Assembly (NCBI RefSeq): GCF_026967925.1
Contig: NZ_JAPVBI010000001.1
Location: 434,001-498,000 of the forward strand
DNA from: Modestobacter sp. VKM Ac-2985
Lineage (GTDB): Bacteria > Actinomycetota > Actinomycetes > Mycobacteriales > Geodermatophilaceae
Length of the DNA stretch: 64,000 nt
Direction of reading: 5' to 3'
Translations under genes and position numbers: made by a program
Notes under the pieces: model-generated
What the model saw: the letters and a program-made list of their open reading frames with translations, nothing else
Database searches by the model: none
Told to the model about the DNA's origin: nothing
Part shown: positions 42,494 to 57,296 of the stretch, piece after piece
How the letters are laid out: each line of letters opens with the position of its first letter
Numbering within the stretch: the stretch's first letter is position 1

Positions 42494-43357
42494 TCAGGCG
42501 CCGCGGCGCCGACGGCGACCGGCGGGGGGCACCACGACCGAGGCGGCGCGCCCGCTGCCGGCAGCCGGGAGGGCGCGCAGTGTGCGCCGCCGGGCGTACC
42601 AGGCCAGCCCGGCCATGGCGGCCCCGACGCCGACCGCAGCGCTGGTCACCACCGGCGTCCGGGAGCCGGAGAACCGCGAGCGCAGGGTGACCGGGCGGGT
42701 GAACTCCAGCACCGGCCAGCCGCGCTCGACGGCGGCCCGTCGTAGTCCCTTGTCGGGGTTGACGGCGGTGGGGTGCCCGACGGCCGCCAGCATCGGCAGG
42801 TCGGTGATCGAGTCGCTGTAGGCCCAGCAGTCGGCCAGGTCCCAGCCCTTCTCGGCGGCCACCTCCCGCATCGCTGCGGCCTTGTTCTCGCCGTAGGCGT
42901 AGAAGTCGATCTCGCCGGTGTACTTTCCGTCGACGGTGACCATCCGGGTGGCGACCACCCGGTCCACCCCGAGCATCTCGCCGATCGGCTCGACCATCTC
43001 CGCACCGCTGCTGGAGACGATCACGATCTCCCGGCCGGCCGCCTGGTGCGCCTCGATCAGGTCGGCGGCCTCGGCGTAGACCAGTGGGTCGACGATGCCG
43101 TGCAGTGTCTCCCGGACGATCTCGTGCACGACGGCGACGTCCCACCCCGTGGTCATCGCGGTGATCTGGCTCCGCATCCGCTCCATCTGGTCGGCGTCCG
43201 CGCCGGCCAGGGAGAAGACGAACTGCGCGTAGGCGCCCTTGAGGACGGCTCGCCGGTTGATCAGCCCACCCTGGAAGAACGGTCGTCCGAAGGCCAGCGT
43301 GCTGGACTTCGCGATGACCGTCTTGTCCAGGTCGAAGAACGCCGCAGCGCGGGTCAC
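42494..43357 (-). CDS. HAD-IB family phosphatase with C-terminal membrane helix (SerB-like)
   Basis: 287 residues. Motif I FFDLDKTVIAKSS (catalytic Asp pair), motif II VIVSSSGAEMVEP and motif IV CWAYSDSITDLPML are typical of HAD-IB hydrolases. A single hydrophobic segment near residues 243-262 and a very basic tail suggest membrane attachment. Start GTG 43357. Adjacent and divergent to ssd/tad, as Rv3661 is to Rv3660c in M. tuberculosis. The shared promoter region holds a TCCACA-N13-TCCACA motif. Confidence 0.9.
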   Translation of the reverse strand: MTRAAAFFDLDKTVIAKSSTLAFGRPFFQGGLINRRAVLKGAYAQFVFSLAGADADQMERMRSQITAMTTGWDVAVVHEIVRETLHGIVDPLVYAEAADLIEAHQAAGREIVIVSSSGAEMVEPIGEMLGVDRVVATRMVTVDGKYTGEIDFYAYGENKAAAMREVAAEKGWDLADCWAYSDSITDLPMLAAVGHPTAVNPDKGLRRAAVERGWPVLEFTRPVTLRSRFSGSRTPVVTSAAVGVGAAMAGLAWYARRRTLRALPAAGSGRAASVVVPPAGRRRRRGA

Positions 43358-43407: not shown

Positions 43408-43432
43408 TCCACACCCGGACGGGTCGTCCACA
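43408..43432. promoter_or_regulatory. TCCACA-N13-TCCACA motif, copy 1 (HAD-IB / ssd intergenic)
   Basis: Two identical hexamers start 19 bases apart (43408, 43427). The site is 51 bases from both divergent starts. The same motif and spacing occur at 47292 and, inverted, at 55332. Confidence 0.55.
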
Positions 43433-43482
43433 GATGCCCGCCGGGGCTGGGCCGGGCCCGGCCGGCCCGCTGGGCTGGGCAG

Positions 43483-44577
43483 GTGTCTGCTGCCTCGCGC
43501 GCCCTCGGCTCCGCGCCCCCCGCCCCCGCCCACCCGCTGGTCCTGAGCACCGATCCCGACCTGCTCGACGACCTGCTCCGGCTGCTCGCCGCCGCCGGCG
43601 CGACCGCCGAGCTGGCCACCGGGGGAGGTGCGCTCCGCCGCGCCCACCGGGACGCGCCGCTGGTCCTCCTCGGTGCCGAGGTGCTGGGCAGTGCGCCGGT
43701 GCGGGCGTTGCCGCGGCGCCCGGGTCTGCTGGTCGTCGCCACCGGTGAACCCGCCGCCGAGGTGTGGCCGGCGGCCGTCGAGCTCGGCGCCGAACGGGTG
43801 GTGGTGCTGCCCCGGGACGAGACGTGGCTGGTGGAGCGGGTGGCTGCGGCGGTGCAGGCGCCCGCCCGGCCGGGGTGGCTGACCGTGGTCGGCGGCGCCT
43901 GCGGTGGTGCCGGGGCGAGCACCCTGGCGACGGCGCTCGCGGTGGCTGCGGCCGGTGCCGCCGACGGCGGGGTGCTGCTGGTGGACGGCGACGGCTGGGG
44001 CGCCGGGCTGGACCTGCTGCTCGGGGCCGAGCGGGAGCCCGGGCTGCGCTGGCCCGAGCTGGTCGGGGTGAGCGGACGGGTGGCCGGGCCGGCGCTCGCC
44101 GCCGCGCTGCCCGAGGCCGCCGGGGTGGCGGTGCTGTCCGCCTCCCGGGAGGACCCGCAGGAGCCGCCGGCCGAGGCGCTGCTCGCCGTCTGCGCGGGTG
44201 CCCGGGCCAGCGGGTGCGCCGTCGTGCTCGACCTGCCCGTCCGGAGCCCGGCCGCCGAGGCGCTGCTCGCCGAGGCCGACCTCGGTGTCCTGCTCGTCCC
44301 GGCCCGGCTGCGGGCGGGGGCCGCCGCCCGCGCCCTGCTGGAGGGCGATCCACGGCCCTGGTCGGCGGCGCGCGTGGTCAGCCGGCCCGTCCCCGGTGGG
44401 CTCAGCCGCGGCCAGGTGGCCGACGTGGTCGGTCGTCCGGTCTTCGCCGAGCTCGCCGCCGACCGGTCGGCGGCGCCTCGGAGCGAACGGGGCGAACCGC
44501 CGTCCGTGGCCGCCCGGTCCCCGCTCGGTGGGCTCAGCCGACTGCTCCTCGCCGAGCTGGCCGGGCGGGCGGCGTGA
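43483..44577 (+). CDS. ssd: Septum-site-determining / CpaE-like protein of the tad operon (Ssd)
   Basis: 364 residues. N-terminal ~120 residues resemble a receiver-like domain without the phosphorylation Asp pattern; the C-terminal part is a MinD/ParA-like ATPase fold. The P-loop is GGACGGAGASTLA, with no signature Lys, as is usual for actinobacterial Ssd proteins, so ATP hydrolysis is uncertain. VLLVDGDGWGAGLDLLLG is the expected Walker-A-prime strand. It localises or regulates the pilus machine or septum in homologues. GTG 43483; the stop overlaps tadA. Confidence 0.88.
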   Translation: MSAASRALGSAPPAPAHPLVLSTDPDLLDDLLRLLAAAGATAELATGGGALRRAHRDAPLVLLGAEVLGSAPVRALPRRPGLLVVATGEPAAEVWPAAVELGAERVVVLPRDETWLVERVAAAVQAPARPGWLTVVGGACGGAGASTLATALAVAAAGAADGGVLLVDGDGWGAGLDLLLGAEREPGLRWPELVGVSGRVAGPALAAALPEAAGVAVLSASREDPQEPPAEALLAVCAGARASGCAVVLDLPVRSPAAEALLAEADLGVLLVPARLRAGAAARALLEGDPRPWSAARVVSRPVPGGLSRGQVADVVGRPVFAELAADRSAAPRSERGEPPSVAARSPLGGLSRLLLAELAGRAA

Positions 44578-45728
44578 CCGCGGTGTCGGCGCCACCGTTG
44601 GTGGAGCGGGTGCGCGCCCGGCTCGCCACCGGTGTCGGCGCCCCCAGCCCGGCGGCCGTGGCGGCCCTGGTCCGGGAGGAGTCCGGCGGCCTGCTGGGCG
44701 ACCGCGGGGTGCTCGACGCCGTCCGGGCCGCCACCGACGAGCTCGCCGGGGCCGGCGTCCTGGAGCCGTTGCTGCGCACGCCCGGGGTCACAGACGTGCT
44801 GGTCAACGGGCCGGGCGAGGTGTGGGTCGACCGCGGCGAGGGCCTGGAGCCGGTCGACGTGCGGTTCCCGGACGAGGCCGCCGTCCGCCGGCTCGCGGTC
44901 CGGCTGGCCGCCGCTGCCGGCCGCCGGCTCGACGACGCCGCGCCGTGGGTCGACGCCGGGCTGCCCGACGGCACGCGGCTGCACGCCGTCCTGCCGCCGG
45001 TGTCGGGGTCGGGTACCTGCCTGTCCCTGCGGGTGCTGCGCCGGGCGGTGCTCTCCTTCGCCGACCTCTCCGCCCGGGGCGCCCTGCCCGGCGCCAGCGC
45101 CGACCTGCTCGCCGCCGCCGTCCGGGAGCGGCTGGCGTTCCTGGTCACCGGCGGCACGGGCACCGGGAAGACGACGGTGCTCTCCGCGCTGCTCGGGCTG
45201 GTCGACCCCGGGGAACGCCTGGTGCTCTGCGAGGACGCACCCGAGCTCACCCCGCAGCACCCGCACGTCGTCCGGCTGCTCACCCGGCCGCCCAACGTCG
45301 AGGCCGCCGGTGCCGTCACGCTGCGGGACCTGGTGCGCCAGGCCCTGCGGATGCGCCCGGACCGGCTGGTCGTCGGTGAGGTCCGCGGGGCCGAGGTGGT
45401 CGACCTGCTCGCCGCCCTGAACACCGGCCACGACGGTGGCTGCGGCACGGTGCACGTGAACCGGGCAGCGGACCTGCCGGCCCGGCTGGAGGCCCTCGGC
45501 GGTGCGGCCGGCCTGGGCCGGGCTGCGGTGCACAGCCAGGCGGCGGCCGCGCTCGCGCTCGTGGTGCACCTGCGGCGCAGCCCGGCGGGGCGGGGCGTGG
45601 CCGAGCTGGGCGTGGTCCGGCGGCAGGGGGAGCTGATCGAGGTGGCCGCCGGGTGGCGGGCCGACGGCGGGCCCGCCCCGGCGCGCGGGGAGCTGGCCGA
45701 CCTGCTCGGCGTGCGGGTGCCCGGATGA
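44574..45728 (+). CDS. tadA: Flp pilus secretion ATPase TadA/CpaF
   Basis: 384-residue type II/IV secretion ATPase. Walker A GGTGTGKTT (about residue 197), Asp box LCEDAPEL, Walker B RLVVGEVRGAEVVDLL and His box TGHDGGCGTVHVN are intact. It powers pilin export/assembly at the inner membrane. GTG start overlaps the ssd stop, and the stop overlaps tadB. Confidence 0.94.
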   Translation: MTAVSAPPLVERVRARLATGVGAPSPAAVAALVREESGGLLGDRGVLDAVRAATDELAGAGVLEPLLRTPGVTDVLVNGPGEVWVDRGEGLEPVDVRFPDEAAVRRLAVRLAAAAGRRLDDAAPWVDAGLPDGTRLHAVLPPVSGSGTCLSLRVLRRAVLSFADLSARGALPGASADLLAAAVRERLAFLVTGGTGTGKTTVLSALLGLVDPGERLVLCEDAPELTPQHPHVVRLLTRPPNVEAAGAVTLRDLVRQALRMRPDRLVVGEVRGAEVVDLLAALNTGHDGGCGTVHVNRAADLPARLEALGGAAGLGRAAVHSQAAAALALVVHLRRSPAGRGVAELGVVRRQGELIEVAAGWRADGGPAPARGELADLLGVRVPG

Positions 45729-46522
45729 GCCCGGTGCTGCTGCTCCTGGGGGCCGCGCTGCTGACCTGGCCCTCCGGCGCCGCCGCCCGGTCGCGACGGC
45801 TCACGGTGCCGGGGCGGGGCGGGGTGCGCCCGGACCTCCGTGCTCTGGCCGGGGGACCGGGTGGGCCGTGGGCGTTCGCGCTGGCGGGCGGGGGAGCCGC
45901 GGCGCTGCTGTCCACCCCGGTCGTGGCCGCGCTCGCGGCCGGCTGCGGTGCCGTCGCCGGCCGGGCCCTCCGGGCGCGAGGCCGGACGGCCGCCGCCGAC
46001 CGGCGGACCCGGGCCCTCGTGGAGGCCCTCGGAGTGCTGGCCGCAGAGGTGCGCGCCGGGCGGCCGCTCCGGGAGGCGGCCGAGGCCGCGGTCGGCGGCT
46101 GCCCGGACCCCGGCACCGCCCGGGCGCTCGAGCCGGTCCTGCGGCTGGGCGCCCCGCCGGCGGGACCGGCGGACGACGAGTCGAGCCGCGCGCTCGTGCG
46201 GATCGCGGCCGCGGTGCGGCTGAGCACCCGCACCGGGTGCTCACTGGCCGGCGTGGTCACCGCCGTCGAGGACGACCTGCGGGCCCGGCTGCGGGCCGGG
46301 GAGGAGCTGCGCTCGGCGGTCGCCGGACCGCGGGCCAGCGCCACCGTGCTCGCCGGGCTGCCCCTGCTCGGCCTGCTGATGGGCAGCGGGGTGGGCGCCG
46401 ATCCGTGGCGGGTGCTCACGACCACCGCCGCCGGGACGGCGCTCCTGGTGCTGGGCGTGGCGCTGGAACTGGCCGGGCTGACCTGGTCGGCCCGGTTGGT
46501 CCGGCAGGCGGTGGCCCGGTGA
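45725..46522 (+). CDS. tadB: Flp pilus inner-membrane protein TadB
   Basis: 265 residues with a type II secretion F domain (about 100-225, RTRALVEALGVLAAEVRAGRPL and STRTGCSLAGVVTAVEDDL) between membrane helices near residues 1-20, 48-75, 203-220 and 232-252. It is the platform protein working with TadC and TadA. The ATG overlaps the tadA stop. Confidence 0.9.
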   Translation: MSPVLLLLGAALLTWPSGAAARSRRLTVPGRGGVRPDLRALAGGPGGPWAFALAGGGAAALLSTPVVAALAAGCGAVAGRALRARGRTAAADRRTRALVEALGVLAAEVRAGRPLREAAEAAVGGCPDPGTARALEPVLRLGAPPAGPADDESSRALVRIAAAVRLSTRTGCSLAGVVTAVEDDLRARLRAGEELRSAVAGPRASATVLAGLPLLGLLMGSGVGADPWRVLTTTAAGTALLVLGVALELAGLTWSARLVRQAVAR

Positions 46523-47259
46523 ACGCGGCCCTGTCGGTCCTGGTCCTGGCCGGTGCGGTGCTGCTGTGGGTGCCGCCTGGGGTCGGCCGCCGGGACCGGC
46601 TGCGGTCGCTGCTCGCCGCTCCCGGGGAGGGCGGTCGGTCCTGGCCGACCCGTCGGGCGACCGGCCCGCCGGGGACGGCGCGACGGCGGGTGGAGGCGGG
46701 CCTGGGTGGGCTGGCGGCCTTCCTGGTGCTCGGGGCGGGGCTGCCGGCCGCGCTCGTCGGGCTGGGCCTGGCCGCCGGGCTGGACCGGCTGCTGCGCCAG
46801 TCCGGTGCGCCACCGTCCGAGGCCGACTCCCTCGCCCGGGACCTGCCGGTGGCCTGCGACCTGCTGGCCGTCTGCCTGGCGGCCGGCACCCCGGTCGGGG
46901 CAGCCGTCGCGGCCGTCGGGGAGTCGGTCCCGGGTCCGCTCGGCGACCGGCTGGTCGAGGTGGGCGCGCTGTACCGGCTGGGCGCCGCCCCTTCTCGGGC
47001 CTGGGCCGGGGCGCCGCCGCCGGTCGACGCACTGGCCCGGACGGTGGTGCGGGCCGGGGAGTCGGGGTCGGCCGTCGTCCCCGCCCTGCAGCGGCTCGCG
47101 GGCGACCTGCGCAGCGCCGGTCGCAGCCGGACCGAGGCCGCGGTGCAGCGGGCTGGGGTCTGGGTGCTGGCGCCGCTCGGGCTGTGCTTCCTGCCGGCGT
47201 TCCTCTGCCTGGGCGTCGTCCCGATGGTGCTGGGCATCGCCGGTGCGGTGTTCGGCTGA
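46519..47259 (+). CDS. tadC: Flp pilus inner-membrane protein TadC
   Basis: 246 residues, second F-domain platform protein. LARDLPVACDLLAVCLAAGT and VRAGESGSAVVPALQRLAGDL are F-domain signatures, with helices at both ends. GTG start overlaps the tadB stop. The downstream gap of 142 bases holds the TCCACA motif, so the pilin genes may have their own promoter. Confidence 0.9.
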   Translation: MNAALSVLVLAGAVLLWVPPGVGRRDRLRSLLAAPGEGGRSWPTRRATGPPGTARRRVEAGLGGLAAFLVLGAGLPAALVGLGLAAGLDRLLRQSGAPPSEADSLARDLPVACDLLAVCLAAGTPVGAAVAAVGESVPGPLGDRLVEVGALYRLGAAPSRAWAGAPPPVDALARTVVRAGESGSAVVPALQRLAGDLRSAGRSRTEAAVQRAGVWVLAPLGLCFLPAFLCLGVVPMVLGIAGAVFG

Positions 47260-47291
47260 GCAACGGCCTCGGGGCTCGGTGCCGCTCGGTG

Positions 47292-47316
47292 TCCACAACA
47301 GGGGGCGCTCTCCACA
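47292..47316. promoter_or_regulatory. TCCACA-N13-TCCACA motif, copy 2 (upstream of the pilin gene)
   Basis: Hexamers start at 47292 and 47311, 19 bases apart, 86 bases before the pilin ATG. The right half and its flank (CGCTCTCCACAACC) are identical to those of copy 3. Confidence 0.55.
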
Positions 47317-47401
47317 ACCTGGCCGCGGTGGCCGGCGAGCGGCACCGCCGGCAGCAGGCTCGGGTCGACGGACCGGCAGGCGGTCCGGCGGAGGAGGGGA
47401 C

Positions 47402-47632
47402 ATGGACCAGCAGTCGCAGGTCGAGGAGCGACCCGGCCGGCGGGCCGCACGGGCCCGGAGGTGGGCGGCGGCCCAGGCGGCGGGCGAAGAAGGGATGAGC
47501 ACCGCGGAGTACGCCGTCGGGACGGTGGCCGCCTGCGCGTTCGCCGCCGTGCTCTACCAGGTGGTGACCGGTGGATCGGTGGTCGCGGCGCTCGGCGAGC
47601 TCGTCCAGACCGCGCTCGCCACGCTCGCCTGA
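47402..47632 (+). CDS. flp: Flp-type pilin (DUF4244)
   Basis: 76-residue prepilin. A basic leader of ~32 residues ends in GEEG-MSTAEYAVG, the prepilin peptidase cleavage site with the Glu5 required for assembly. A hydrophobic helix follows (VAACAFAAVLYQVVTGGSVV). GAGGAGGGGA precedes the ATG. It matches the DUF4244 family found in actinobacterial tad operons (Rv3656c type). No prepilin peptidase is in the window. Confidence 0.92.
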   Translation: MDQQSQVEERPGRRAARARRWAAAQAAGEEGMSTAEYAVGTVAACAFAAVLYQVVTGGSVVAALGELVQTALATLA

Positions 47633-47638
47633 GTCGAC

Positions 47639-48025
47639 GTGTCGACACCCGGCCGCGGCCGGCGGGCCGGTGCCTCCCGGGAGGCCGGGATGGTGACCGC
47701 GGAGACGGCCGTGGTGCTGCCCGTGCTCCTGCTGGTGCTGGCCGCTGCGGTGTCGGCGGTCGTCGTGGTCGGCGCCCAGCTGCGCTGTGTGGACGCCGCC
47801 CGGGAGGGGGCTCGGGCGGCGGCCCGCGGTGAGCCGGTGGCCGCAGTGCACGAGCTGGCGGCGCACGCCGCGCCCGACGGTGCGACGACGGATCTGGACG
47901 TGGGGGAGACGGTGCGCGTGACCGTCGCAGCGACGGTCGAGCCGCTCGGGCCACTGCTCTGGCGGATCGAGGTCTCGGCGACGGCGACGGGCCTGCGTGA
48001 ACCGGCAGCGGGCGGCTCGCCGTGA
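47639..48025 (+). CDS. tadE: TadE-like pseudopilin
   Basis: 128 residues. Leader then GMVTAETAVVLPVLLLVLAA, the TadE-type N-terminal membrane helix with the conserved Glu, and a beta-rich outer domain. GTG start six bases after the pilin stop; the stop overlaps the next gene. Confidence 0.9.
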   Translation: MSTPGRGRRAGASREAGMVTAETAVVLPVLLLVLAAAVSAVVVVGAQLRCVDAAREGARAAARGEPVAAVHELAAHAAPDGATTDLDVGETVRVTVAATVEPLGPLLWRIEVSATATGLREPAAGGSP

Positions 48026-48786
48026 CCGGCCACGAGCCGGCGGACCACGGTGAGCGCGGTTCCGCCACCGTGTGGGTGGTCGCGCTGGCGGGGCTGCTCG
48101 CCCTGCTCGGCGCGGCCACGCTCCTCGTCGGTGCCGCCGTCGTGGCCCGGCACCGCGCCACCTCGGCTGCCGACCTCGCGGCCCTGGCCGCCGCCGGTCG
48201 GGCCGTGCTGGGCGACCCGGCGGCCTGCACGGTCGCCCAGGAGATCGCCGCGGCGAACAGCGCGACGCTCGACTCCTGTCAGGTCGATGCGGGTGCCGTG
48301 GTGGAGGTCCACCTGCACGTCCCGGTGCGGCTGGGTCCGCTCGGCGTGCTCGACGCCCCGGCCCGGGCCCGCGCCGGCCCGGCGCCGCCGGGGACCGGGT
48401 CAGAAGACGAGGTCGTCGGGGTCGGCACCGGCCGCGCCGGTGTCGGCGACCGGATCGGTCCCGGCCGGGGCGCGCGAAACCGTCGCCCCCGGGTTGCCGT
48501 CCCGACCACGATCATCGCCGCCCCGGTGTCCGGGTGCACAGCGCTAACGCATGAGCATCCAACTCAGGTGTCTCCTTCGGCTGTGCAGAACCCATATCCG
48601 AAGCCCGTGGCAGGTCCCGGGCGGCGAGAGCGCAAGTTCCCTTGCCCGAAGCTGCTTGGGAACCTTGGCCAGGTGACCTATGCACCTTCTGGGCGTGCAC
48701 CTATTGGCAAGGCCGAAGGCGTTGCGCGCGTACGTCTCGAAGACCATGCTGTCCACCATTGCCCGGCGCGGTTCCTACCGACCTAG
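48022..48786 (+). CDS. TadE/TadG-like protein (Rv3654c type) with a chimeric C-terminus
   Basis: The first ~125 residues are a normal member of the helicase-neighbouring TadE-like family: ERGSATVWVVALAGLLALLG membrane helix, then RHRATSAADLAALAAAGRA and the VEVHLHVPV strand. From about base 48399 the frame runs through an inverted remnant of the helicase gene and then into low-GC insert DNA, ending at residue 254 with unrelated sequence. Homologues stop near residue 120-130, so the tail is an accident of the insertion. Starts with GTG overlapping tadE. Confidence 0.75.
   Translation: MTGHEPADHGERGSATVWVVALAGLLALLGAATLLVGAAVVARHRATSAADLAALAAAGRAVLGDPAACTVAQEIAAANSATLDSCQVDAGAVVEVHLHVPVRLGPLGVLDAPARARAGPAPPGTGSEDEVVGVGTGRAGVGDRIGPGRGARNRRPRVAVPTTIIAAPVSGCTALTHEHPTQVSPSAVQNPYPKPVAGPGRRERKFPCPKLLGNLGQVTYAPSGRAPIGKAEGVARVRLEDHAVHHCPARFLPT
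48399..48434. repeat. Duplicated helicase 3' end, left copy
   Basis: 36 bases matching 50347-50382 except for two substitutions, same orientation. Both encode, on the minus strand, the helicase C-terminal DLVF and TGA stop. Confidence 0.85.
48400..48543 (-). pseudogene. Remnant of a helicase 3' end with internal deletion
   Basis: The minus strand carries two pieces of a helicase gene like that at 50348: bases 48504-48543 match 50717-50756 (36 of 40), encoding HPDTGAAMIVV, and 48400-48434 match its last codons. They are separated by 69 bases here but 334 in the intact gene, so about 265 bases are lost and the frame is broken. It marks where the helicase originally ended, beside the tad operon. 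Confidence 0.8.
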
Positions 48787-48846
48787 AGTTGGTGGTGGGC
48801 CAGCCGCGTAGCTCTATGAGTATCGCATCTGCGCCGAGGAGTGTTC

Positions 48847-49500
48847 ATGGGACTGTTCGGCAGGCGCGAAAGGAAGCAGGGCACCTCTGGGAGGCCGATA
48901 GCGGGTTTCAACGAGCCACGCCCTCCTGTGGCGGCCCCACCGCCGGATGCGAGTCCCGTGGTGCCGCCAGCTGAGCTGGATGCCATCACAAAGTGGATAG
49001 CCCATATCGGCGCCTGGCGTTCTGGAGATGACTCCCTTAGATCGGGACTCATTGAGTCAGCTGGACCATTTCCAGTTCAAACCCAGGCAGGCTTCGAGGA
49101 GGCCCTGCGCCAGATCCGGTCCCAGTTGAGTGAGGCTCAGGAAACGTGGTCTAAACTTTTTCGCCTGCCTCGGGAAATAGTCCAAGGTGAGCTCAATGCG
49201 ATCGACTTTTGGGAATCTGTAGAGGGCATATTCGAGAGCGCCTACAGTGACTGGCTGCGCGAGGCGGCGGCTCGGGACAGAGATGCAAGTGTTCGACAGG
49301 AGGTTGGTAGAGAAGTTGCCCGTCGGCTGCAGATAGTCGCCGGTTTCAAGAAGGGATCCGACGATCAGGCGAAGGCTGTGCGGTCCATGCTCCGGTATCT
49401 CGACGATCTCGACGATCTCGACGATCTCGACGATCTCGGGGCCGAGGTGCGGGTAGAGGTCACGTTGGCTCGCGGCCGTCTGTTTGCTCTGCTCAACTAA
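48847..49500 (+). CDS. Island protein of unknown function with DDL repeats
   Basis: 217 residues, not recognised. A basic N-terminus (MGLFGRRERKQG) and a Pro-rich linker (about 25-42) precede an amphipathic helical region with many Trp/Phe (WIAHIGAWRSGD, FWESVEGIFESAY). Near the C-terminus lies a perfect run of Asp-Asp-Leu repeats. No membrane helix. The ATG at 48847 is chosen for the GAGGAG six bases upstream. Codons such as ATA, TTT and CTT, rare elsewhere, indicate foreign origin. Confidence 0.7.
   Translation: MGLFGRRERKQGTSGRPIAGFNEPRPPVAAPPPDASPVVPPAELDAITKWIAHIGAWRSGDDSLRSGLIESAGPFPVQTQAGFEEALRQIRSQLSEAQETWSKLFRLPREIVQGELNAIDFWESVEGIFESAYSDWLREAAARDRDASVRQEVGREVARRLQIVAGFKKGSDDQAKAVRSMLRYLDDLDDLDDLDDLGAEVRVEVTLARGRLFALLN
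49399..49438 (+). repeat. 9-bp tandem repeat (CTCGACGAT x4.4)
   Basis: Four perfect copies plus a partial one, encoding Leu-Asp-Asp repeats within the island protein. Copy number changes here would not shift the frame. Confidence 0.9.
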
Positions 49501-49839
49501 GTGGCAGCGCTGAGCTCAGTGCGTATGCAAAGACCATCGCGGCGGTCTGCTGCCAGTGTCGCCAGTGTATTGGGCCCGCTGCTCTCGACCTTCAGTGCGG
49601 CCCGCCCGGCGTCCAATCCAGCCTTGACGTCGGCGCGGCAGTCGTCTAGGAGCACCGTGGTGCGGCCGCCCCCGCCTCTGGGGCTGTTGGGTGCTTGCAG
49701 TGTCCGTCCGCGCGGTGCCACCAGGATGCGTGAGCAGTGCGTCGGGACCTATGTCGAGGCATTGCCATCGGGCCGTCTGACTGACAGGCTTCGCATCCGT
49801 CGTTTCGATGCTCGTACGCCAACCTCCTGGGGAGTCTAG
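49501..49839 (+). CDS. Doubtful island ORF
   Basis: A GTG-started frame of 112 codons directly abuts the stop of the previous gene and ends where the next begins, with fairly high G/C in third positions. The product is Ser/Arg-rich with no recognisable feature. On the opposite strand, 49497-49721 (LLDDCRADVKAGLDAGRAAL) looks at least as protein-like. Either or neither may be real. Confidence 0.25.
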   Translation: MAALSSVRMQRPSRRSAASVASVLGPLLSTFSAARPASNPALTSARQSSRSTVVRPPPPLGLLGACSVRPRGATRMREQCVGTYVEALPSGRLTDRLRIRRFDARTPTSWGV

Positions 49840-50049
49840 GTGGCAGCAGTCCTGTTCCTTGCACTCCTCGTGCTGTGCATTTATGTGATCGTCAATCACT
49901 TCTACGGCATTCGACCTGAGGCGTACACGATCTCAGACTGCTCGAATTGTGGGCAACGCTTCCGGCCGGTGGACATTCCCGGGGACTGGGACGTGCGGGC
50001 CATCTTCTGCAAGAAGTGCATCGAGAGGGGGGTGGCTGACTCGTTTTAG
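49840..50049 (+). CDS. Small membrane-anchored zinc-ribbon protein
   Basis: 69 residues. One N-terminal membrane helix (AAVLFLALLVLCIYVIVNHF) followed by a zinc-ribbon-like pair of CxxC motifs (CSNCGQRF and FCKKCI, 24 residues apart). GTG start, with GGGGAG just upstream. It belongs to the low-GC insert and lies upstream of the 45-residue Cys-rich gene. Family not recognised. Confidence 0.65.
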   Translation: MAAVLFLALLVLCIYVIVNHFYGIRPEAYTISDCSNCGQRFRPVDIPGDWDVRAIFCKKCIERGVADSF

Positions 50050-50101
50050 TCAACCTTCGCCCACTCGCTGGACAGCGCAGCCGGTCAATCGAGGAGTGCA
50101 T

Positions 50102-50239
50102 GTGAACTGCAAGAAGTGCAATGCCCGTGTCCAGACCTGTCCGGGGTGTGGGGGGACCGGGGGAGGATCTCGGCACAACTGCAGCAAATGCAACAACACG
50201 GGTCAAATTTGTCCGAGTCATGGCGGCTACTGGAGCTAG
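50102..50239 (+). CDS. 45-residue Cys-rich protein resembling a DnaJ zinc finger
   Basis: The sequence consists almost entirely of zinc-binding motifs: CKKC near the N-terminus, CPGCGGTGGG, CSKCNNTG and a final ICPSHGG. The CxxCxGxG pattern is that of the DnaJ central domain. The GTG at 50102 has GAGGAG five bases upstream, the same leader sequence (GAGGAGTG) seen before the 217-residue gene, which supports translation. No larger DnaJ part exists nearby. Confidence 0.6.
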   Translation: MNCKKCNARVQTCPGCGGTGGGSRHNCSKCNNTGQICPSHGGYWS

Positions 50240-50346
50240 TCGCCAGGCGTCTCGGCCGTTCGGCGAGTTCTTTGCTCCGCCGGCCCTGTGCTCGTTCGTG
50301 TCTGATGGACGGCTGATGACCGGGGCGTCGGCGTTCGAGCCTGGAC

Positions 50347-50382
50347 GTCAGAAGACGAGGTCGGCGGGGTCGGGACCGGCCG
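50347..50382. repeat. Duplicated helicase 3' end, right copy (within the intact gene)
   Basis: Right member of the 36-base direct repeat described at 48399-48434; it is the natural 3' end of the intact helicase gene. Confidence 0.85.
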
Positions 50383-52870
50383 TCCCCGCCTCGGTGCCGG
50401 GGTCGGCCTCCGTCGTGGTGGGGGTGCTGGCGCCGGGGAGGGCGGGCCGGAGCGCCGGCCTCCGGGTCACCTCCAGCTCCTCGGCCGTCAGCTCCGGGGC
50501 GTGCGCCAGCTCGTCGAGCACGACGTCGAGCACCCGCACGGCCCCGGCCTTGTCCAGCGGGTCGTTGCCGTTACCGCACTTGGGCGACTGCACGCACGAC
50601 GGGCAGCCGGACTCGCACTCACAGCTGGCCACCGTCGCCCGGGTCGCCTGCAGCCAGTCCCGGAGCACCGCGTACCCGCGCTCGGCGAAACCGGCGCCGC
50701 CCGGGTGCCCGTCGTAGACCACGATCGTCGCCGCGCCGGTGTCCGGGTGCAGGGCGGTGGAGACCCCGCCGAGGTCCCAGCGGTCGCAGGTGGCCAGCAG
50801 CGGCAGCAGCCCGATCGAGGCGTGCTCGGCGGCGTGCAGCGAGCCGGGCAGGGCGGCGTCGTCGACGTCGGCGCGGTCGATCGCCCGCTCGTCCAGCGTC
50901 AGCCACACCGCCCGGGTCCGCAGCTGGCGAGGTGGCAGGTCGAGCGGGAACTCGGCGAGCACCTCGCCGGTGCCCAGCCGCCGTCGCTGGTAGGCGACGA
51001 CCTGGTTGGTGACGTCCACGACGCCGGTGTGTGCGGTGACGGCGCCCAGCCGGCGGGTGCGGTCGGTGGAGACGATCGACAGGTCGACGGTGTCGCGGGC
51101 CACCGTCGTCCACTCCGGGCTCTCGGGGTGCACCACGGCGCAGGCGTCCTCGACGTCGAGCTCGTCGACCACGTAGGTCTCGCCGCGGTGCACGTAGAGC
51201 GCGCCGGTGTGCACGGTGGCGTGCGAGGCATCGCCGTCGACGGTGCCCAGCAGCCGGCCGGTCGCGCCCTCGACGATCGACACCGGCGCTGCGCCGCTGC
51301 CGCGGATGTCCACGTCCGGTCGGCCCCGTCCGGCCCAGTACCAGCCGGTGGGGCGGGTGCGCAGCAGTCCCTCGGCGACCAGCTCCCCGACCTGCGCCTC
51401 GGCCACCTCGCCGCCGAAGTCCGCCAGGTCGGCGTGGGTCAGGGGCAGCTCGGCGGCGGCGCAGCACAGCTGCGGGCCCAGCACGTAGGGGTTGGCCGGG
51501 TCGGTGACGGTCGCCTCGACGGGCCGGCCGAACACCGCGCGCGGGTGGTGGGCCAGGTAGTGGTCCAGCGGGTCGTCCCGGGCGACGAACACGACGAGCG
51601 ACTCGCGCTGGGCCCGCCCGGCGCGCCCGGCCTGCTGCCACATCGAGGCCAGGGTGCCGGGGTAGCCGGCGAGCACGACGGCGTCGAGCCCGGCGATGTC
51701 GATCCCCAGCTCGAGGGCGTTCGTGGTCGCCACGCCCAGCAGGTCGCCGGTCGACAGAGCCCGCTCCAGCTCCCGGCGCTCCTCGGGCAGGTAGCCACCC
51801 CGGTAGGAGTCCACCCGGGACACCAGGTCGCCCCGGCCGCGGGACCGCAGGATCGCCCGCGCCTGCTCGGCGACGGACTCCGCGCCGCGGCGGGAGCGCA
51901 CGAACGCCAGCGTGCGGGCGTTCTGCTCGACCAGGTCCGCCAGCAGCCCGGCGGCGTCCGCCGCGGCCGAGCGGCGCAGCGGCGCACCGTGCTCGCCGGT
52001 CCGCTCGGTCAGCGGCGGCTCCCACAGCGCGAAGGTCGCGCCCGGACGCGGCGAGCCGTCCTCGGTCACCGCCGTCACCGGGGCACCGACCAGCCGGCCG
52101 GCGGCCAGCGCGGGGTCCGCCACGGTCGCCGACGCCAGGACGAACACCGGCTCGGCGCCGTACCGGCGGCAGATCCGCCGCAGCCGGCGCAGCACGTGCC
52201 CGACGTGCGAGCCGAACACCCCTCGGTAGGCGTGGCACTCGTCCACGACCACGTAGGCGACCCGGCGCAGCGTGCTCGACCACTTCTGGTGGGCCGGGAG
52301 CACACCCCGGTGCAGCATGTCGGGGTTGGTCACGATCCAGCGCGAGTGCCGCCGCACCCACTCGCGCTCTTCCATCGGGGTGTCGCCGTCGTAGGCCGCC
52401 GGCCGCACCGAGGGGTCGGCCAGGGCAGCGACGGAGGCCAGCTGGTCCCGGGCCAGGGCCTTGGTGGGGGCGAGGTAGAGGACGCACGCCCGCGGGTCGT
52501 CGGCGAGCGCGGTCAGCGCGGGCAGCTGGTAGGCCAGGGACTTGCCCGACGCCGTCCCGGTGGCGACGACGACGTGGCTGCCGGCCCGGGCCAGCTCTGC
52601 CGCTTCGACCTGGTGGCTGAACGGCGCCGGCACCCCGCGCTCGGCCAGCCGGTCCCGCAGCGGCGCGCCGACCCAGTCGGGCCATGCCGCCAGCCGGCTG
52701 GGGCGGGCCGGCAGCCGGTGGACGTGGGTCACGGGGTCGTCGTCGGCATCGGTGCCGGACAGCAGGGCCTCGAGCAGGTCGGTGCCCGGCAGTGCGCCAC
52801 CGGCCGGGTCGGGCATCGGCTCCGGCGGCACGTCCGCGGATCGCTGGACGGAGCGCAGGGACGTCACCAC
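50348..52870 (-). CDS. DEAD/DEAH-box helicase with DUF1998 (MrfA-like, Rv3649 type)
   Basis: 840-residue superfamily 2 helicase. Motifs I (VVATGTASGKSLAYQLP), Ia (APTKALARDQ), II (VVDECHAYRG), III (VLASATVADP), V (TNALELGIDI) and VI (QQAGRAGRAQ) are all present. The C-terminal DUF1998 part ends in a four-Cys metal motif (CECESGCPSCVQSPKCGNGN). This layout is that of MrfA, a mitomycin-lesion repair helicase of Bacillus; the repair role here is inference. Starts with one of two adjacent GTG codons. A CRP-type site lies 60 bases upstream. Confidence 0.93.
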   Translation of the reverse strand: MVTSLRSVQRSADVPPEPMPDPAGGALPGTDLLEALLSGTDADDDPVTHVHRLPARPSRLAAWPDWVGAPLRDRLAERGVPAPFSHQVEAAELARAGSHVVVATGTASGKSLAYQLPALTALADDPRACVLYLAPTKALARDQLASVAALADPSVRPAAYDGDTPMEEREWVRRHSRWIVTNPDMLHRGVLPAHQKWSSTLRRVAYVVVDECHAYRGVFGSHVGHVLRRLRRICRRYGAEPVFVLASATVADPALAAGRLVGAPVTAVTEDGSPRPGATFALWEPPLTERTGEHGAPLRRSAAADAAGLLADLVEQNARTLAFVRSRRGAESVAEQARAILRSRGRGDLVSRVDSYRGGYLPEERRELERALSTGDLLGVATTNALELGIDIAGLDAVVLAGYPGTLASMWQQAGRAGRAQRESLVVFVARDDPLDHYLAHHPRAVFGRPVEATVTDPANPYVLGPQLCCAAAELPLTHADLADFGGEVAEAQVGELVAEGLLRTRPTGWYWAGRGRPDVDIRGSGAAPVSIVEGATGRLLGTVDGDASHATVHTGALYVHRGETYVVDELDVEDACAVVHPESPEWTTVARDTVDLSIVSTDRTRRLGAVTAHTGVVDVTNQVVAYQRRRLGTGEVLAEFPLDLPPRQLRTRAVWLTLDERAIDRADVDDAALPGSLHAAEHASIGLLPLLATCDRWDLGGVSTALHPDTGAATIVVYDGHPGGAGFAERGYAVLRDWLQATRATVASCECESGCPSCVQSPKCGNGNDPLDKAGAVRVLDVVLDELAHAPELTAEELEVTRRPALRPALPGASTPTTTEADPGTEAGTAGPDPADLVF

Positions 52871-52929
52871 CCCACTGTCACACCGGCGTGCAAGCCGCTG
52901 CCCGGGACAGCGGACCGAATGACGGCGAG

Positions 52930-52945
52930 TGTGAACGGGATCACA
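52930..52945. promoter_or_regulatory. CRP/GlxR-type operator (TGTGA-N6-TCACA)
   Basis: TGTGAACGGGATCACA is a perfect palindromic match to the CRP half-sites with the correct 6-base spacer. It lies between the divergent helicase (60 bases from its start) and hppA (118 bases from its start) genes, and is the only such site noticed in an intergenic region here. Confidence 0.7.
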
Positions 52946-53063
52946 TCAAAGCCTGGCGGCAGGACCACGTCCTACGGCACAGTGCGTCCCACGCCGGGCC
53001 CTCCCGAGCGAGAGCCCGGGGGTGGCTGGCCGGTGCGCGCCCCGCCTCGCCTCGGAGGAACAC

Positions 53064-55325
53064 ATGCCCGACACCGACCTGTCCGGAGGGGACCTCGCCC
53101 TGGTGGCGATCGCTCTCCTCATCTCCCTCGCCGCCCTCGGCTTCGCCGCCTGGCTGGTCCGCGCCGTCCTGGCCGCAGATCAGGGCACGGCGTCGATGCA
53201 GGAGATCGCGAAGGCGATCCAGGAGGGTGCCGGGGCCTATCTGAGACGGCAGTACCGGACGCTCGCCGTGTTCGCCGTCATCGTCTTCGGGTTGCTGCTC
53301 CTGCTCCCGGTCGCCGAGGGCGGGCTGGGCACCCGGTTGGGTCGCGCGGCCTTCTTCCTCGTCGGTGCCGGGTTCTCCGCCGCGGTCGGGTTCATCGGGA
53401 TGACCCTGGCCACCCGCGGCAACGTCCGGGTGGCGGCCGCCGCGGCCGCCGGCGGGCACCGGCCGGCCTTCCGCATCGCGTTCCGCACCGGTGGCGTCTG
53501 CGGGATGATCACCGTCGGCCTGGGGCTGTTCGGGGCCTCGCTGGCCCTGCTGCTCTTCCAGGAGACCGCCCCGATCGTGCTGGAGGGGTTCGGCTTCGGC
53601 GGGGCGCTGCTGGCGATGTTCATGCGCGTCGGGGGTGGCATCTTCACCAAGGCCGCCGACGTCGGTGCCGACCTGGTCGGCAAGGTCGAGGCCGGCATCC
53701 CGGAGGACGACCCGCGCAACGCCGCGACGATCGCGGACAACGTCGGGGACAACGTCGGCGACTGCGCCGGCATGGCCGCCGACCTGTTCGAGTCCTACGC
53801 CGTGACGCTGGTGGCCGCGCTGATCCTCGGCCAGATCTTCTTCGGTCCCGTGGGCATGGTCTTCCCGCTGGTGGTGGCCGCGATCGGGGTGATCGCCTCC
53901 GTGGTCGGCATCCTGGCCAGCAACCCCAGCAGCAACGACCGGAACTGGATGGCCCCGATCAACCGCGGCTTCTTCCTCTCCGCCGCCGTCTCCCTGGTGC
54001 TGGTCGCCGCGGCCTCCTTCACCATCCTGCCGACGATCTCCGACGGTCTGGACATCGCGGTCAGCCCGCAGGTGCTCGGCTTCCTCTCCGTGCTCATCGG
54101 CATCGTGCTGGCCGCCGCGATCCAGCAGCTCACCGGCTACTTCACCGAGACCTCCCGCCGGCCCGTCCGCGACGTGACCCGCAGCTCGCTCACCGGCCCG
54201 GCCACCGTGATCCTCTCCGGCATCTCCCTGGGCCTGGAGTCTGCGGTCTACGCGGCGCTGCTCATCGGCACCGCCGTCTACGGCGCCTTCCTCATCGGCG
54301 GCGCCGCGGCCCTCTACGCGGTCGCGCTGGCCGGCTGCGGGCTGCTCACCACCGCCGGGGTGATCGTCTCGATGGACACCTTCGGCCCGGTCAGCGACAA
54401 CGCGCAGGGCATCGCGGAGATGTCCGGGGACATCGACGCCGAGGGCGCGCAGGTGCTCACCGACCTGGACGCGGTCGGCAACACCACCAAGGCGATCACC
54501 AAGGGCATCGCGATCGCCACCGCCGTGCTCGCGGCCACCGCCCTGTTCGGCTCCTACAACGCCAGCCTGATCGTCGCGCTGGACGAAGCCGGGTCAGACC
54601 TCGGGAACGCCCTCACCCTGGTGTCGCCGAACAACGTCGTCGGCGCCGTCGTCGGCGCCGCCGTCGTCTTCCTCTTCTCCGGGCTGGCGATCAACGCGGT
54701 GTCGCGTGCCGCAGGCCGGGTCGTGTTCGAGGTGCGCGAGCAGTTCCGCACGCACCCCGGGATCATGGACTACAGCGAGCGCCCCGACTACAGCCGTGTG
54801 GTCGACATCTGCACCCGGGACTCGCTGCGGGAACTGACCACCCCTGGCCTGCTCGCCGTCCTGGCGCCGGTCGCGGTCGGCTTCGGGCTCGGGTTCGGCC
54901 CGCTGGCCGCCTACCTGGTCGGTGCGATCGCCACCGGCACCCTGATGGCCGTGTTCCTGGCCAACTCCGGCGGCGCCTGGGACAACGCCAAGAAGATGGT
55001 CGAGGACGGCGCGCACGGCGGGAAGGGCAGCCCGGCACACGAGGCGACCATCATCGGCGACACCGTGGGCGACCCGTTCAAGGACACCGCCGGTCCGGCC
55101 ATCAACCCGTTGCTCAAGGTGATGAACCTGGTCGCGCTGCTGATCGCCCCGGCCGTCGTCGGACTGTCCGTCGGCGAGGGCGCCAACACCGCGCTGCGGC
55201 TGTCGATCGCCATCGGTGCGGTCCTGGTGATCGTGGTGGCCATCGTGGTCAGCAAGCGGCGGTCCAGCGTCGTGGGCGGCGAGACCGACACCCCGGCCGA
55301 GACGCTCACCGAGCAGGCGTTCTGA
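53064..55325 (+). CDS. hppA: Membrane-bound proton-pumping pyrophosphatase (K+-independent type)
   Basis: 753-residue integral membrane enzyme that couples pyrophosphate hydrolysis to H+ pumping. Catalytic DVGADLVGKVEAGIPEDDPR and NVGDNVGDCAGMAADLFE, and the later GDTVGDPFKDTAGPAINPL, are intact, as are about 15-16 helices. At the ion-selectivity site the sequence is VGNTTKAITKG, with Lys476 where K+-dependent enzymes have Ala, so a K+-independent H+ pump is predicted. ATG 53064 with GGAGGA upstream. The leader holds an imperfect hairpin (52994-53019). Confidence 0.95.
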   Translation: MPDTDLSGGDLALVAIALLISLAALGFAAWLVRAVLAADQGTASMQEIAKAIQEGAGAYLRRQYRTLAVFAVIVFGLLLLLPVAEGGLGTRLGRAAFFLVGAGFSAAVGFIGMTLATRGNVRVAAAAAAGGHRPAFRIAFRTGGVCGMITVGLGLFGASLALLLFQETAPIVLEGFGFGGALLAMFMRVGGGIFTKAADVGADLVGKVEAGIPEDDPRNAATIADNVGDNVGDCAGMAADLFESYAVTLVAALILGQIFFGPVGMVFPLVVAAIGVIASVVGILASNPSSNDRNWMAPINRGFFLSAAVSLVLVAAASFTILPTISDGLDIAVSPQVLGFLSVLIGIVLAAAIQQLTGYFTETSRRPVRDVTRSSLTGPATVILSGISLGLESAVYAALLIGTAVYGAFLIGGAAALYAVALAGCGLLTTAGVIVSMDTFGPVSDNAQGIAEMSGDIDAEGAQVLTDLDAVGNTTKAITKGIAIATAVLAATALFGSYNASLIVALDEAGSDLGNALTLVSPNNVVGAVVGAAVVFLFSGLAINAVSRAAGRVVFEVREQFRTHPGIMDYSERPDYSRVVDICTRDSLRELTTPGLLAVLAPVAVGFGLGFGPLAAYLVGAIATGTLMAVFLANSGGAWDNAKKMVEDGAHGGKGSPAHEATIIGDTVGDPFKDTAGPAINPLLKVMNLVALLIAPAVVGLSVGEGANTALRLSIAIGAVLVIVVAIVVSKRRSSVVGGETDTPAETLTEQAF

Positions 55326-55331
55326 CCGGGT

Positions 55332-55356
55332 TGTGGAGAGCGGCACCGGGTGTGGA
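55332..55356. promoter_or_regulatory. TCCACA-N13-TCCACA motif, copy 3 (inverted, TGTGGA-N13-TGTGGA)
   Basis: TGTGGA hexamers at 55332 and 55351, again 19 bases apart, between hppA and the helical-hairpin gene. On the opposite strand it shares CGTCCACACCCGG with copy 1 and CGCTCTCCACAACC with copy 2. Confidence 0.55.
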
Positions 55357-55443
55357 CGACGGGCCCCGGGACGTGTGCCGAGCTCCCTAGCGTCCCTCCC
55401 GCCGGTCCCGCCCGGGGCCGTGGTCCGCCGCCGGGAGGCACGT

Positions 55444-55779
55444 GTGTCCGATCTGATCGACGTCCACCTCGATGCCCTCGGGGCCCTGCTCGGGGAGCTG
55501 ACCGCGCTGGGCGCAGAGCTCGGGGAGGAGGCTCGACTGTGCGCCTCGGCGGGGCGGGCGCTGGGCACCGCGCTGGAGGGGGAGGTGGGGGAGGCGGTGG
55601 CCGCCACGGGTGCGGCGTGGACCGACCTGGTCACCGCGCTCGCCGCGCGCACCCTGGCCGTCGCCGCCAGCCTGGCGACCGCGCTGGAGTCCTACCGGGT
55701 CGTCGACGTCGGCCTCGCCGAGCAGCTCGGCGGTGGTGGTGCCGGTGACGGCCGTGGCCGGGTCCGGGTGCCGCGGTGA
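55444..55779 (+). CDS. Small helical-hairpin protein, possible type VII (ESX/EspC-like) substrate
   Basis: 111 residues forecast as two long helices (LDALGALLGELTALGAELG and WTDLVTALAARTLAVAAS) plus a glycine-rich end. LESYRVVDVGLAEQL fits the YxxxD/E secretion signal of WXG100/EspC-type substrates. No signal peptide. GTG 55444 with GGGAGG upstream. Overlaps the next gene by GTGA, forming a substrate-partner-like pair. No ESX core gene lies in the window. Confidence 0.6.
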   Translation: MSDLIDVHLDALGALLGELTALGAELGEEARLCASAGRALGTALEGEVGEAVAATGAAWTDLVTALAARTLAVAASLATALESYRVVDVGLAEQLGGGGAGDGRGRVRVPR

Positions 55780-57296
55780 CGACGACGGCAGCCCTCGCCG
55801 GCTGGGACGTCCCGCAGCTGCGGGGCGCGGTGGTCACCCTCGGGGTGCTGGCCGATCGACTGGTGCCCTGGCGGGGGCGGCTGGACGAGCTGGGTCGTGA
55901 GCTCGGGGCCGCGGGGTCCTGGTCCGGCCCGGCTGGCACGGCGGCCGCCGCAGCGCTCGTCGAGCTCTCCACGATCACCTCCGGCGTCGGTGGGGCGCTG
56001 GACACGTCGCTGGTCGACCTCACCGGGCTGTCCGCCGCGGCGGACCAGGCGCAGGAGCTGGCCGTCGAGGCCCTGGCGGTCGCCGCGGCCGGCGGGGTCG
56101 GCCTGGACGGCACCGGTCGGGCGGTCGGGGTCCCCGCCCCACCCCACCCGGCCATGGCACCGGACCAGCTGGCCGACGTGGAGACCGCCCGCAGCGCCGC
56201 GGTGCGCGCCGAGGCCAGGGCCGAGGAGGCCCACCTCGCGGCGGCTCGGGCGGCGGCGTGCGCCCGAGCCGCGCTGCAGCCACTGCGTCGGCTCGGTGTG
56301 GTCGCCGTCCCGGTGCCGGACCGCTTCGCCGACCTGGTGGACCGGTTGCTGCCGGTCCGCCCACCGCAGGTCCCGGTCGCCGCCGGCCCTCAGCGCGCCG
56401 CGGCCTGGTGGGCCGGGCTGACGGCGGCCGGGCAGCTGCAGGCGATCGACGGGCAACCGGGGGCGGTCGGCGCCCTGGACGGTCTGCCGGCCTGGGCTCG
56501 CGACCGGGCGAACCGGGCCGACCTGGCTGCGGCGCTGCAGCACCTGCCACCGGGGTCGGTCGGCCACGACACCGCCCGCAGCGTGCAGCGCACCTTGGCC
56601 GAGCTGGTGGGCGGCGGCTCGGTGGCCCAGCTCCTGGTGTTCGACCCGGCGGCCGGCCTGGTGGCGCTGTCCGTCGGCGACCTGGACACCGCTGCCGCCG
56701 TCGGGGTCCTGGTCCCGGGGGTCGAGACCACGGTCGGCGACGACCTGGCGGGGCTGGTCGGTGACGCCCGGGACGTCGCGGCGGCCGCTGCGGTGGCTGC
56801 CCCGGGCCTGGCCGTGGCGACGGTCGCCTGGCTGGGCTACCGGACACCCCGGTGGTTCACCTCGGTCTCCGAGCACGCCTCCCGGCGCGGGGGCCGCGAC
56901 CTGGACATCGCGCTGGACGGGCTGGCCGCCAGTCGGGCCGCCGGGCCGGCGCCGCGGACGACCGTGCTGGCGCACAGCTACGGCACCGTCGTCACCGGGC
57001 AGGCGGCGCGAGCACCGGGCCGGCTGGCGGCGGACGCCGTCGTCCTGCTGGGCAGCCCGGGCACGGGCACGGGGACGGCGGAGGGGCTGGAGGCGGCGGA
57101 GGTCTACGGCGCCTCGTCGACGGCCGATCCGGTCGCCTGGTCCGGCTGGTACGGGGCCGGCCCGTTCGACACGAGGTTCGGCGACGTCCCCCTGCCGACC
57201 GAGCCGACCCAGGGACACACCCAGTACTACGACCGGGACCGACCGACCCTGGCCGCCGTCGGTGCGGTCGTGGCCGGCCCGTGGGCGCCGCGATGA
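55776..57296 (+). CDS. Alpha/beta hydrolase, DUF1023 family, with WXG-like N-terminus
   Basis: 506 residues. The first ~110 residues form a helical bundle with WSGPAGTAAAAAL, reminiscent of WXG100 proteins, followed by a coiled-coil-like stretch (residues 133-180). The C-terminal DUF1023 hydrolase has the nucleophile elbow VLAHSYGTVV and a later QYYDRDRPTL region with the likely catalytic His. The substrate is unknown. GTG start overlaps the upstream gene, so the two proteins probably interact, perhaps for export. Confidence 0.85.
   Translation: MTTTAALAGWDVPQLRGAVVTLGVLADRLVPWRGRLDELGRELGAAGSWSGPAGTAAAAALVELSTITSGVGGALDTSLVDLTGLSAAADQAQELAVEALAVAAAGGVGLDGTGRAVGVPAPPHPAMAPDQLADVETARSAAVRAEARAEEAHLAAARAAACARAALQPLRRLGVVAVPVPDRFADLVDRLLPVRPPQVPVAAGPQRAAAWWAGLTAAGQLQAIDGQPGAVGALDGLPAWARDRANRADLAAALQHLPPGSVGHDTARSVQRTLAELVGGGSVAQLLVFDPAAGLVALSVGDLDTAAAVGVLVPGVETTVGDDLAGLVGDARDVAAAAAVAAPGLAVATVAWLGYRTPRWFTSVSEHASRRGGRDLDIALDGLAASRAAGPAPRTTVLAHSYGTVVTGQAARAPGRLAADAVVLLGSPGTGTGTAEGLEAAEVYGASSTADPVAWSGWYGAGPFDTRFGDVPLPTEPTQGHTQYYDRDRPTLAAVGAVVAGPWAPR

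Follow-up and report, generated by a model that had tools for sequence, protein, structure and literature searches.

A paired TCCACA element that probably serves as the activator operator of a natural competence regulon in Modestobacter and related actinomycetes

Introduction

The cis-elements of known competence regulons include the CIN box of ComX/sigma-X, the ComK box and the CRP-S sites. ComX is described as a competence regulator (PMC8467076, in excerpt). Known parts of transformation in Micrococcus luteus are ComEA, ComEC, DprA and two tad clusters (excerpt of PMC4322843), and the comEA/EC promoter is most active under nutrient limitation (excerpts of PMC4322843, PMC12849477 and PMC8467076); the competence regulon and cascade of this species were stated to be currently unknown in 2026 (excerpt of PMC12849477). 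Here we analyze a 64,000-nucleotide stretch of the Modestobacter sp. VKM Ac-2985 genome (GCF_026967925.1, contig NZ_JAPVBI010000001.1, positions 434,001 to 498,000), called the window throughout, in which a first-pass annotation had noticed two TCCACA hexamers separated by 13 bases. We argue that this pair is very probably the operator of an activator-controlled regulon for competence (natural transformation).

Results

The first-pass annotation had reported three exact copies of TCCACA-N13-TCCACA in the window, all non-coding and 51-88 bases from a start codon. All three are exact and lie where it placed them: copy 1 (43408..43432, plus strand) in the divergent intergenic region between a HAD-IB gene and ssd, copy 2 (47292..47316, plus strand) upstream of the Flp pilin gene, and copy 3 (55332..55356, minus strand) inverted relative to a pair of genes for a WXG-like protein and an alpha/beta hydrolase. 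None was expected from 100 dinucleotide shuffles of the window. Copy 1 lies 50 nucleotides (nt) from the start of ssd (43483), copy 2 lies 85 nt from that of the pilin gene (47402) and copy 3 lies 87 nt from that of the small WXG-like gene (55444); the earlier figures include the start codon's first base. The genome-wide search that the annotation had proposed found 17 exact sites in the 4.72 Mb of the nine contigs and none for the reversed control; when up to one mismatch was allowed, there were 29 sites against 6. The spacing is specific, as 17 of the 26 hexamer pairs with gaps of 4-34 have a gap of 13 and the remaining nine are scattered across the 30 alternatives; with the reversed control, all gaps together yield 14 pairs. 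Equal frequency inside genes had been named as grounds for rejecting the motif; by open reading frame calling all 17 exact sites are intergenic, and the intergenic share of the window is only 9.3%. Fifteen of them are oriented toward a gene whose start lies 50-91 nt downstream, and the other two (L003 and L013; L, G and f numbers are our handles for loci, genomes and families) are inverted relative to WXG-type genes. The observation is real, and larger than first described.

Family searches showed which genes these sites face. The targets in this genome include two SSB genes, ComEA (with HHH_3 and SLBB domains), RecA, the UPF0102 protein YraN, a ComM-type Mg_chelatase, Ssd (NCBIfam), RcpC/CpaB, DUF4192, DUF2786, AbiEi_4 and DUF559 proteins, an FAD oxidoreductase, a WXG100 protein and an FHA-bearing protein, which is a full-length FtsK/SpoIIIE-type (EccC-like) protein; a target of 98 amino acids (aa; L008) had no family match in the Pfam and NCBIfam searches. 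The target operons extend into ComEC (comEA-comEC) and DprA (yraN-comM-dprA). One-mismatch sites add an M23 peptidase (51 nt to the start), an XRE regulator (50 nt) and a protein that reads as AbiEi/DUF559-like (44 nt). The neighbour families recur at 167 sites from 16 genomes, of which the 15 besides our own were picked to span genera; this set excludes 12 one-mismatch loci (L018-L029) and eight known sites (one of G334 and seven of G296). DUF559/AbiEi proteins adjoin 17 of these sites, SSB-a 13, RecA 12, Ssd, CpaB, ComEA, YraN and DUF4192 11 each, SSB-b 10, and the pilin and HAD-IB nine each; at nine of the 167, an inverted site lies 83-87 nt upstream of the WXG-like/hydrolase pair family.

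Such a target list would be anticipated if a Tad/Flp pilus served natural transformation: one shared element stands before comEA, yraN-comM-dprA, recA, ssb and the tad genes, and in relatives it is conserved together with its genes. The first-pass annotation had proposed an undescribed regulon that joins pilus genes with the type VII-like pair. The link is supported, but the scope was drawn too narrowly, as the element also serves comEA-comEC, yraN-comM-dprA, recA, two ssb genes, Tad genes, cpaB, DUF4192 and DUF559/AbiEi. No such element or regulon was found in a literature search of mainly open-access text in excerpt, in agreement with the word undescribed.

Several proteins behind the pairs deserve a separate mention. 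AbiEi_4/DUF559-type proteins are the commonest family adjoining the pair (L009, L011, L012 and 14 further sites), and to our knowledge they have no role in transformation. DUF4192 ranks as a promising candidate for a hitherto unrecognized transformation protein, its promoter carrying the pair in most of the Geodermatophilaceae loci examined: among named genomes, and leaving out two truncated loci of 80 (L321 and L372), the exact pair is present in 37 of 58 Geodermatophilaceae loci, many of the others having two boxes at a step of 18, and it also occurs in single species of Actinopolyspora, Longimycelium, Umezawaea, Actinokineospora and Saccharopolyspora. A search for a solved relative of DUF4192 by sequence gave none at E values up to 0.1. 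The best match to the DUF4192 protein of our genome, at 91%, is in Modestobacter sp. VKM Ac-2984. One of the DUF4192 records, titled UNVERIFIED_ORG Bacillus sp. AZ43 (L352), looks as if it belonged to the Geodermatophilaceae, with the exact pair and 59% identity in DUF4192. DUF4262-like proteins, by reading, adjoin the pair in two genomes (L063 and L168), and one is encoded near dprA in our own genome (L193:11826-12272, PF14081). Finally, a 1151-aa open frame (L192:2820-6272) joins ComEC (Competence and Lactamase_B domains) to a DNA polymerase III delta C-terminal domain, so that comEC and holA are apparently fused.

Aligning the sites on the pair gave a consensus of roughly GYCGTCCACAGSC-N-GYYGTCCACAGAT, which takes in the partly shared flanks that the first-pass annotation had seen between window copies. 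A second conserved signal lies far downstream, an A at +64 and a T at +68 counted from the start of the first hexamer (box 1); both are present in 90 of the 137 sites with a start within 130 nt, compared with a mean of 1.6 and a maximum of 12 at other offsets. This signal looks like a -10 element of the TAGCGT type, 38 nt past the second hexamer (box 2), and no evident -35 was seen in the aligned sites. The start codon follows box 2 by 50-52 nt in 67 of the 167 sites; transcription is expected to begin at this same place, and many of the mRNAs may therefore be leaderless. A GAT extension follows box 2 in 71 of 146 Geodermatophilaceae sites. The inverted copies keep distances of their own: the -10-like hexamer is 30-31 nt from the pair in 10/10 loci of the WXG pair (in one as a weaker GAGGGT), 30-31 nt in 6/6 loci of WXG100 and 36-37 nt in 8/9 loci of HAD-IB.

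The element is spread throughout the family. Pairs were found in 74 of 76 Geodermatophilaceae genomes, with five control matches overall, and in 68/68 of those that are near-complete and little contaminated, at 3 to 22 per genome. The loss of spacing and hexamers from orthologous promoters, which would have counted against the motif, is not what is seen within Geodermatophilaceae, and the same gene families adjoin the pairs in the sampled members of this family and of two others of the order (f3 and f4). An even draw of 296 genomes of the class gave 93 with at least one exact pair, mostly one or two. In a class sample, TCCACA is present upstream of yraN in 23 of 30 loci and of comEA in 19 of 23, and TCCACA pairs in 11/30 and 8/23, respectively, where five control hexamers give pairs in 0-1 loci. 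These loci are not random draws: the yraN loci are the 30 best-scoring of 140 genomes with a match, counting one (L208, 1988 bases) that holds only part of its upstream region and has no TCCACA on the oriented strand, and the comEA loci come from 36 chosen genomes, seven of 30 PF12836 loci (L396-L402) having been dropped as improbable ComEA genes with open frames of 826-929 aa.

In other lineages the boxes are present at other distances. A variable-gap search gave 12 matches against no controls in G028 (nine at a box-to-box step of 26), 16 against none in G046 (two at step 22 and seven at step 32, which is exactly where the search range ends), 16 against 3 in G079 (eight at step 29, four at step 18) and 8 against 1 in G013 (four at step 28); enrichment was weak in G064 (8 against 3), G093 (7 against 4) and G107 (11 against 5). 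The readable sites face the same set (Ssd, pilin, CpaB, ComEA, YraN, RecA, both SSBs, DUF4192 and DUF559) and others. Where the yraN and comEA promoters of one genome both have pairs, these share the same or nearly the same step (29/29 in G048, 22/22 in G058, 33/32 in G115, 29/28 in G013, 26/26 in G028). Two genomes have two steps about one helical turn apart (18/29 in G079, 22/32 in G046), but the phase differs between families. A step of 19 is indeed about two turns, as the first-pass annotation had remarked, but the same-face binding that it drew from this does not generalize: other families use steps of 26, 28/29 and 32, so a two-turn, same-face arrangement does not hold everywhere. The constant is the placement of box 2 with respect to the -10-like element and in many cases also to the start codon; the distance from box 2 to the start is 50-54 nt in 12 of 47 other-family sites with the lineage-typical step.

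Unusual arrangements were also met. In other lineages, single pairs, most of them at the lineage-typical step, precede parB (L267), an SMC-like gene (L291), a uvrD-like helicase gene (L262) and a PdtaS-type kinase gene (L273). Tandem 19-bp repeats with TCCACA in each occur in another family (G038:C1:3095462-3095544), and five consecutive TCCACA boxes at 15-16-bp steps lie upstream of the gene for a 182-aa protein (L285, G046:C12:165439-165507).

Within the window, copy 1 stands between two divergent genes. On the minus strand, the HAD-IB hydrolase gene (42494..43357, TIGR01490) starts 50 nt from the pair and has a -10-like TACCGT at 37 nt from it. On the plus strand, the CpaE-like ssd (43483..44577, TIGR03815), whose start is 50 nt after box 2, is the first gene of the Tad operon and is followed by genes for the TadA ATPase, TadB and TadC (44574..47259, plus strand; PF00437 T2SSE at 44574-45728 and PF00482 T2SSF at 46519-47259, the latter family also matching 45725-46522 below the cut-off). 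Behind copy 2 are the genes for the Flp pilin (DUF4244, PF14029) and the TadE-like and TadE/G-like proteins (PF07811, PF13400), together at 47402..48786 (plus strand); a gene for an MrfA-like helicase (50348-52870) adjoins the tad genes. Copy 3 lies 31 nt from the -10-like TAGCGT (55388..55393, plus strand) of the WXG-pair promoter, which precedes the genes for the small WXG-like protein and the 506-aa alpha/beta hydrolase-domain protein (55444..57296, plus strand). The second of these matches PF06259 Abhydrolase_8; the first has no Pfam match, and WXG-like is our reading of its sequence. In two other genomes (L045 and L140), a pair near WXG genes points at a helicase that reads as of the MrfA-like kind.

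We searched for the protein that reads the boxes. The XRE-type regulator (L020) was rejected as a class-wide regulator: it has matches in 14 of 33 genomes and in none of the f31, f16 and f4 genomes tested, and these genomes without a match carry the element or its variants. Among 15 XRE loci, read on the oriented strand, two have the exact pair upstream and two a one-mismatch pair, and further Geodermatophilaceae loci, several in number, have a single TCCACA roughly as far away as box 2 would be. Given these upstream pairs and lone boxes (L020, L301-L315), the XRE gene looks like a member of the Geodermatophilaceae regulon, and its product may act within this family as a family-level (auto)regulator. 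The NarL/LuxR-type response regulator encoded beside yraN-dprA (L193:4623-5330) was rejected as well, since it is not present across the element-bearing lineages: copies 84% identical occur in the two other Geodermatophilaceae tested, the matches listed elsewhere are 27-39% identical, and the best matches in G028, G046, G079, G064, G013 and G054 are not beside yraN. It could act within Geodermatophilaceae. Its gene has a 99% identical copy on another contig (G000:C1:648587-649294), which is a recent duplication or an assembly artefact. A DnaA paralogue was the third candidate to be discarded, each of eight genomes having exactly one match to PF08299 (DnaA domain IV).

Discussion

The element, its fixed geometry, its gene set and its conservation are matters of observation. 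On our explanation, a protein that reads GTCCACAG would bind two head-to-tail copies of it, and box 2, about 51-56 bp upstream of the presumed transcription start, would recruit or position RNA polymerase at a promoter that has a good -10 of the TAGCGT type but lacks an evident -35. Contact with the promoter would be made through box 2, and a second subunit would sit on box 1, at a position set by a linker or by a dimer geometry that varies from family to family. Switching the system on would then produce the Tad/Flp DNA-uptake pilus, ComEA-ComEC, the SSBs, DprA, ComM and RecA together, that is, uptake and recombination. The DUF4192 and DUF559/AbiEi-type proteins and the M23 peptidase would be accessory members, and the WXG/type VII-like genes would be joined through the inverted copies.

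The most serious alternative is that the replication initiator DnaA itself reads the boxes as paired DnaA boxes and ties competence and recombination directly to the replication state, which we consider possible but clearly the less probable reading. The commonest form of the boxes, (C/T)(C/T)GTCCACA, is like the high-GC actinobacterial DnaA box, their core GTCCACA being that of TTGTCCACA, a high-affinity DnaA box in Mycobacterium tuberculosis and Streptomyces coelicolor (excerpt of PMC4285127), and boxes of the same form lie near dnaA (TCGTCCACAGG and CCGTCCACAGG in G000; CCATCCACAGG and TTGTCCACAGG in G249). Moreover, ParB, SMC, UvrD, RecA and SSB would be fitting targets, no DnaA paralogue is needed or seen, and the two dedicated candidates, of XRE and NarL type, were not found across lineages. 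The geometry argues otherwise. Escherichia coli DnaA favours boxes 2-3 bp apart, at a step of 11-12 (excerpt of PMC11317965), whereas the competence pairs have a step of 19 in Geodermatophilaceae and of 16-33 elsewhere. It is near dnaA instead that a pair at a 12-bp step is found, in 5/5 Geodermatophilaceae examined (L188:10266 and 10278; G323, G298, G297 and G329); our own genome contains two, of which one is at dnaA. In addition, the GAT extension of box 2 is not seen as a rule in dnaA-locus boxes, and TT at the 5' end is a minority form in Geodermatophilaceae. The balance of A and G at position -1 varies from lineage to lineage in both places, an effect that G+C content could produce. A bolder form of the idea, that throughout the class Actinomycetes rigidly spaced DnaA-type boxes let the replication initiator switch on uptake, RecA/SSB and DprA along with a WXG/type VII and cell-wall-hydrolase module that releases the DNA of neighbours, is doubtful.

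An activator is not the only kind of dedicated protein that could bind the pair, and a repressor might hold genes with strong -10 elements off until a signal frees it. The inverted copies before the WXG genes speak for this, as their near-perfect TAGCGT lies at another distance, 30-31 nt, as if orientation and contact mattered less. Nevertheless, a pair well upstream of the -10 (38 nt), in near-invariant register and with no -35 standing out, is the layout of an activator, and the 50-54 nt from box 2 to the start recur in other families; we therefore regard repression as improbable, and from the fixed register to the -10 and the poor -35 we infer an activator site. That the pair is the -35/-10-like couple of an alternative sigma factor promoter is very improbable indeed. 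In its favour are a couple of short, conserved blocks that keep a fixed spacing near starts, a sigma-70-type gene near dprA that reads as WhiG-like, and the precedent of Streptococcus pneumoniae, whose competence uses an alternative sigma factor (excerpt of PMC8467076). Against it, the two blocks are one hexamer repeated head to tail rather than two different ones, families differ in the step (19, 26, 28/29 or 32), and a -10-like element is present separately, 38 nt downstream.

Several findings weigh against a competence regulon under one activator. No regulator protein was found among the XRE and NarL-type candidates and, by its boxes, DnaA. The exact 19-step pair is rare outside Geodermatophilaceae, as the 93 of 296 genomes show; no pair with a gap of up to 34 is present in 19 of 30 yraN and 15 of 23 comEA regions, and no exact TCCACA box whatsoever in 7/30 and 4/23. 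The variable-gap search was not enriched in G054 (6 against 7), G292 (11 against 10) and G086 (2 against 2). Seven of the 167 sites overlap a predicted gene. DUF4192, DUF559 and the FAD oxidoreductase are conserved members without a known role in transformation, and the ParB, SMC-like and UvrD genes added in some lineages would be superfluous in a pure competence set. Activator control of competence is still the explanation we favour, with the start sites and the competence of the cells themselves being predictions from it.

The control of competence in high-GC Gram-positives is an open question, for which there is now a concrete, mutable element with a list of about 20 sites in one genome. 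The element can be compared across actinomycete families and predicts which strains may be transformable, and it marks DUF4192 and DUF559/AbiEi proteins, which have no assigned function, as probable participants in transformation. A question of evolution likewise becomes open to testing, namely why the box-to-box distance is family-specific while box 2 stays fixed on the promoter.

Among described systems, the competence regulons with a defined cis-element are alike in having one element before uptake, pilus, ssb, dprA and recA genes. Compared with the ComX, ComK and CRP-S regulons, the one described here belongs to a different phylum, has a different element, relies on Tad/Flp instead of a com type IV pilus and shows a lineage-specific box spacing. 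Micrococcus luteus, compared by published description, shares with it the ComEA, ComEC, DprA and Tad/Flp genes, and the excerpts of its publications (PMC4322843, PMC12849477, PMC8467076) describe no cis-element or regulon. The double DnaA box of Escherichia coli (PMC11317965, in excerpt) likewise has two close TCCACA-type boxes before replication and DNA repair genes, but the pair described here differs in its step (19, and 16-33 elsewhere, not 11-12), its fixed promoter register and the extra GAT after box 2. In Vibrio cholerae, competence is coupled to the predation of neighbours by type VI secretion (PMC6783263, in excerpt), so that there, too, uptake genes are controlled together with a secretion system; here the partners are WXG/type VII-like genes, reached via inverted sites, whose part in any killing would be hypothetical. 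With the alpha/beta hydrolase and the M23 peptidase, these genes recall competence-with-attack systems such as that of Vibrio. Competence regulons as such are already known; this one is new in its phylum, its element, its gene set and its variable geometry.

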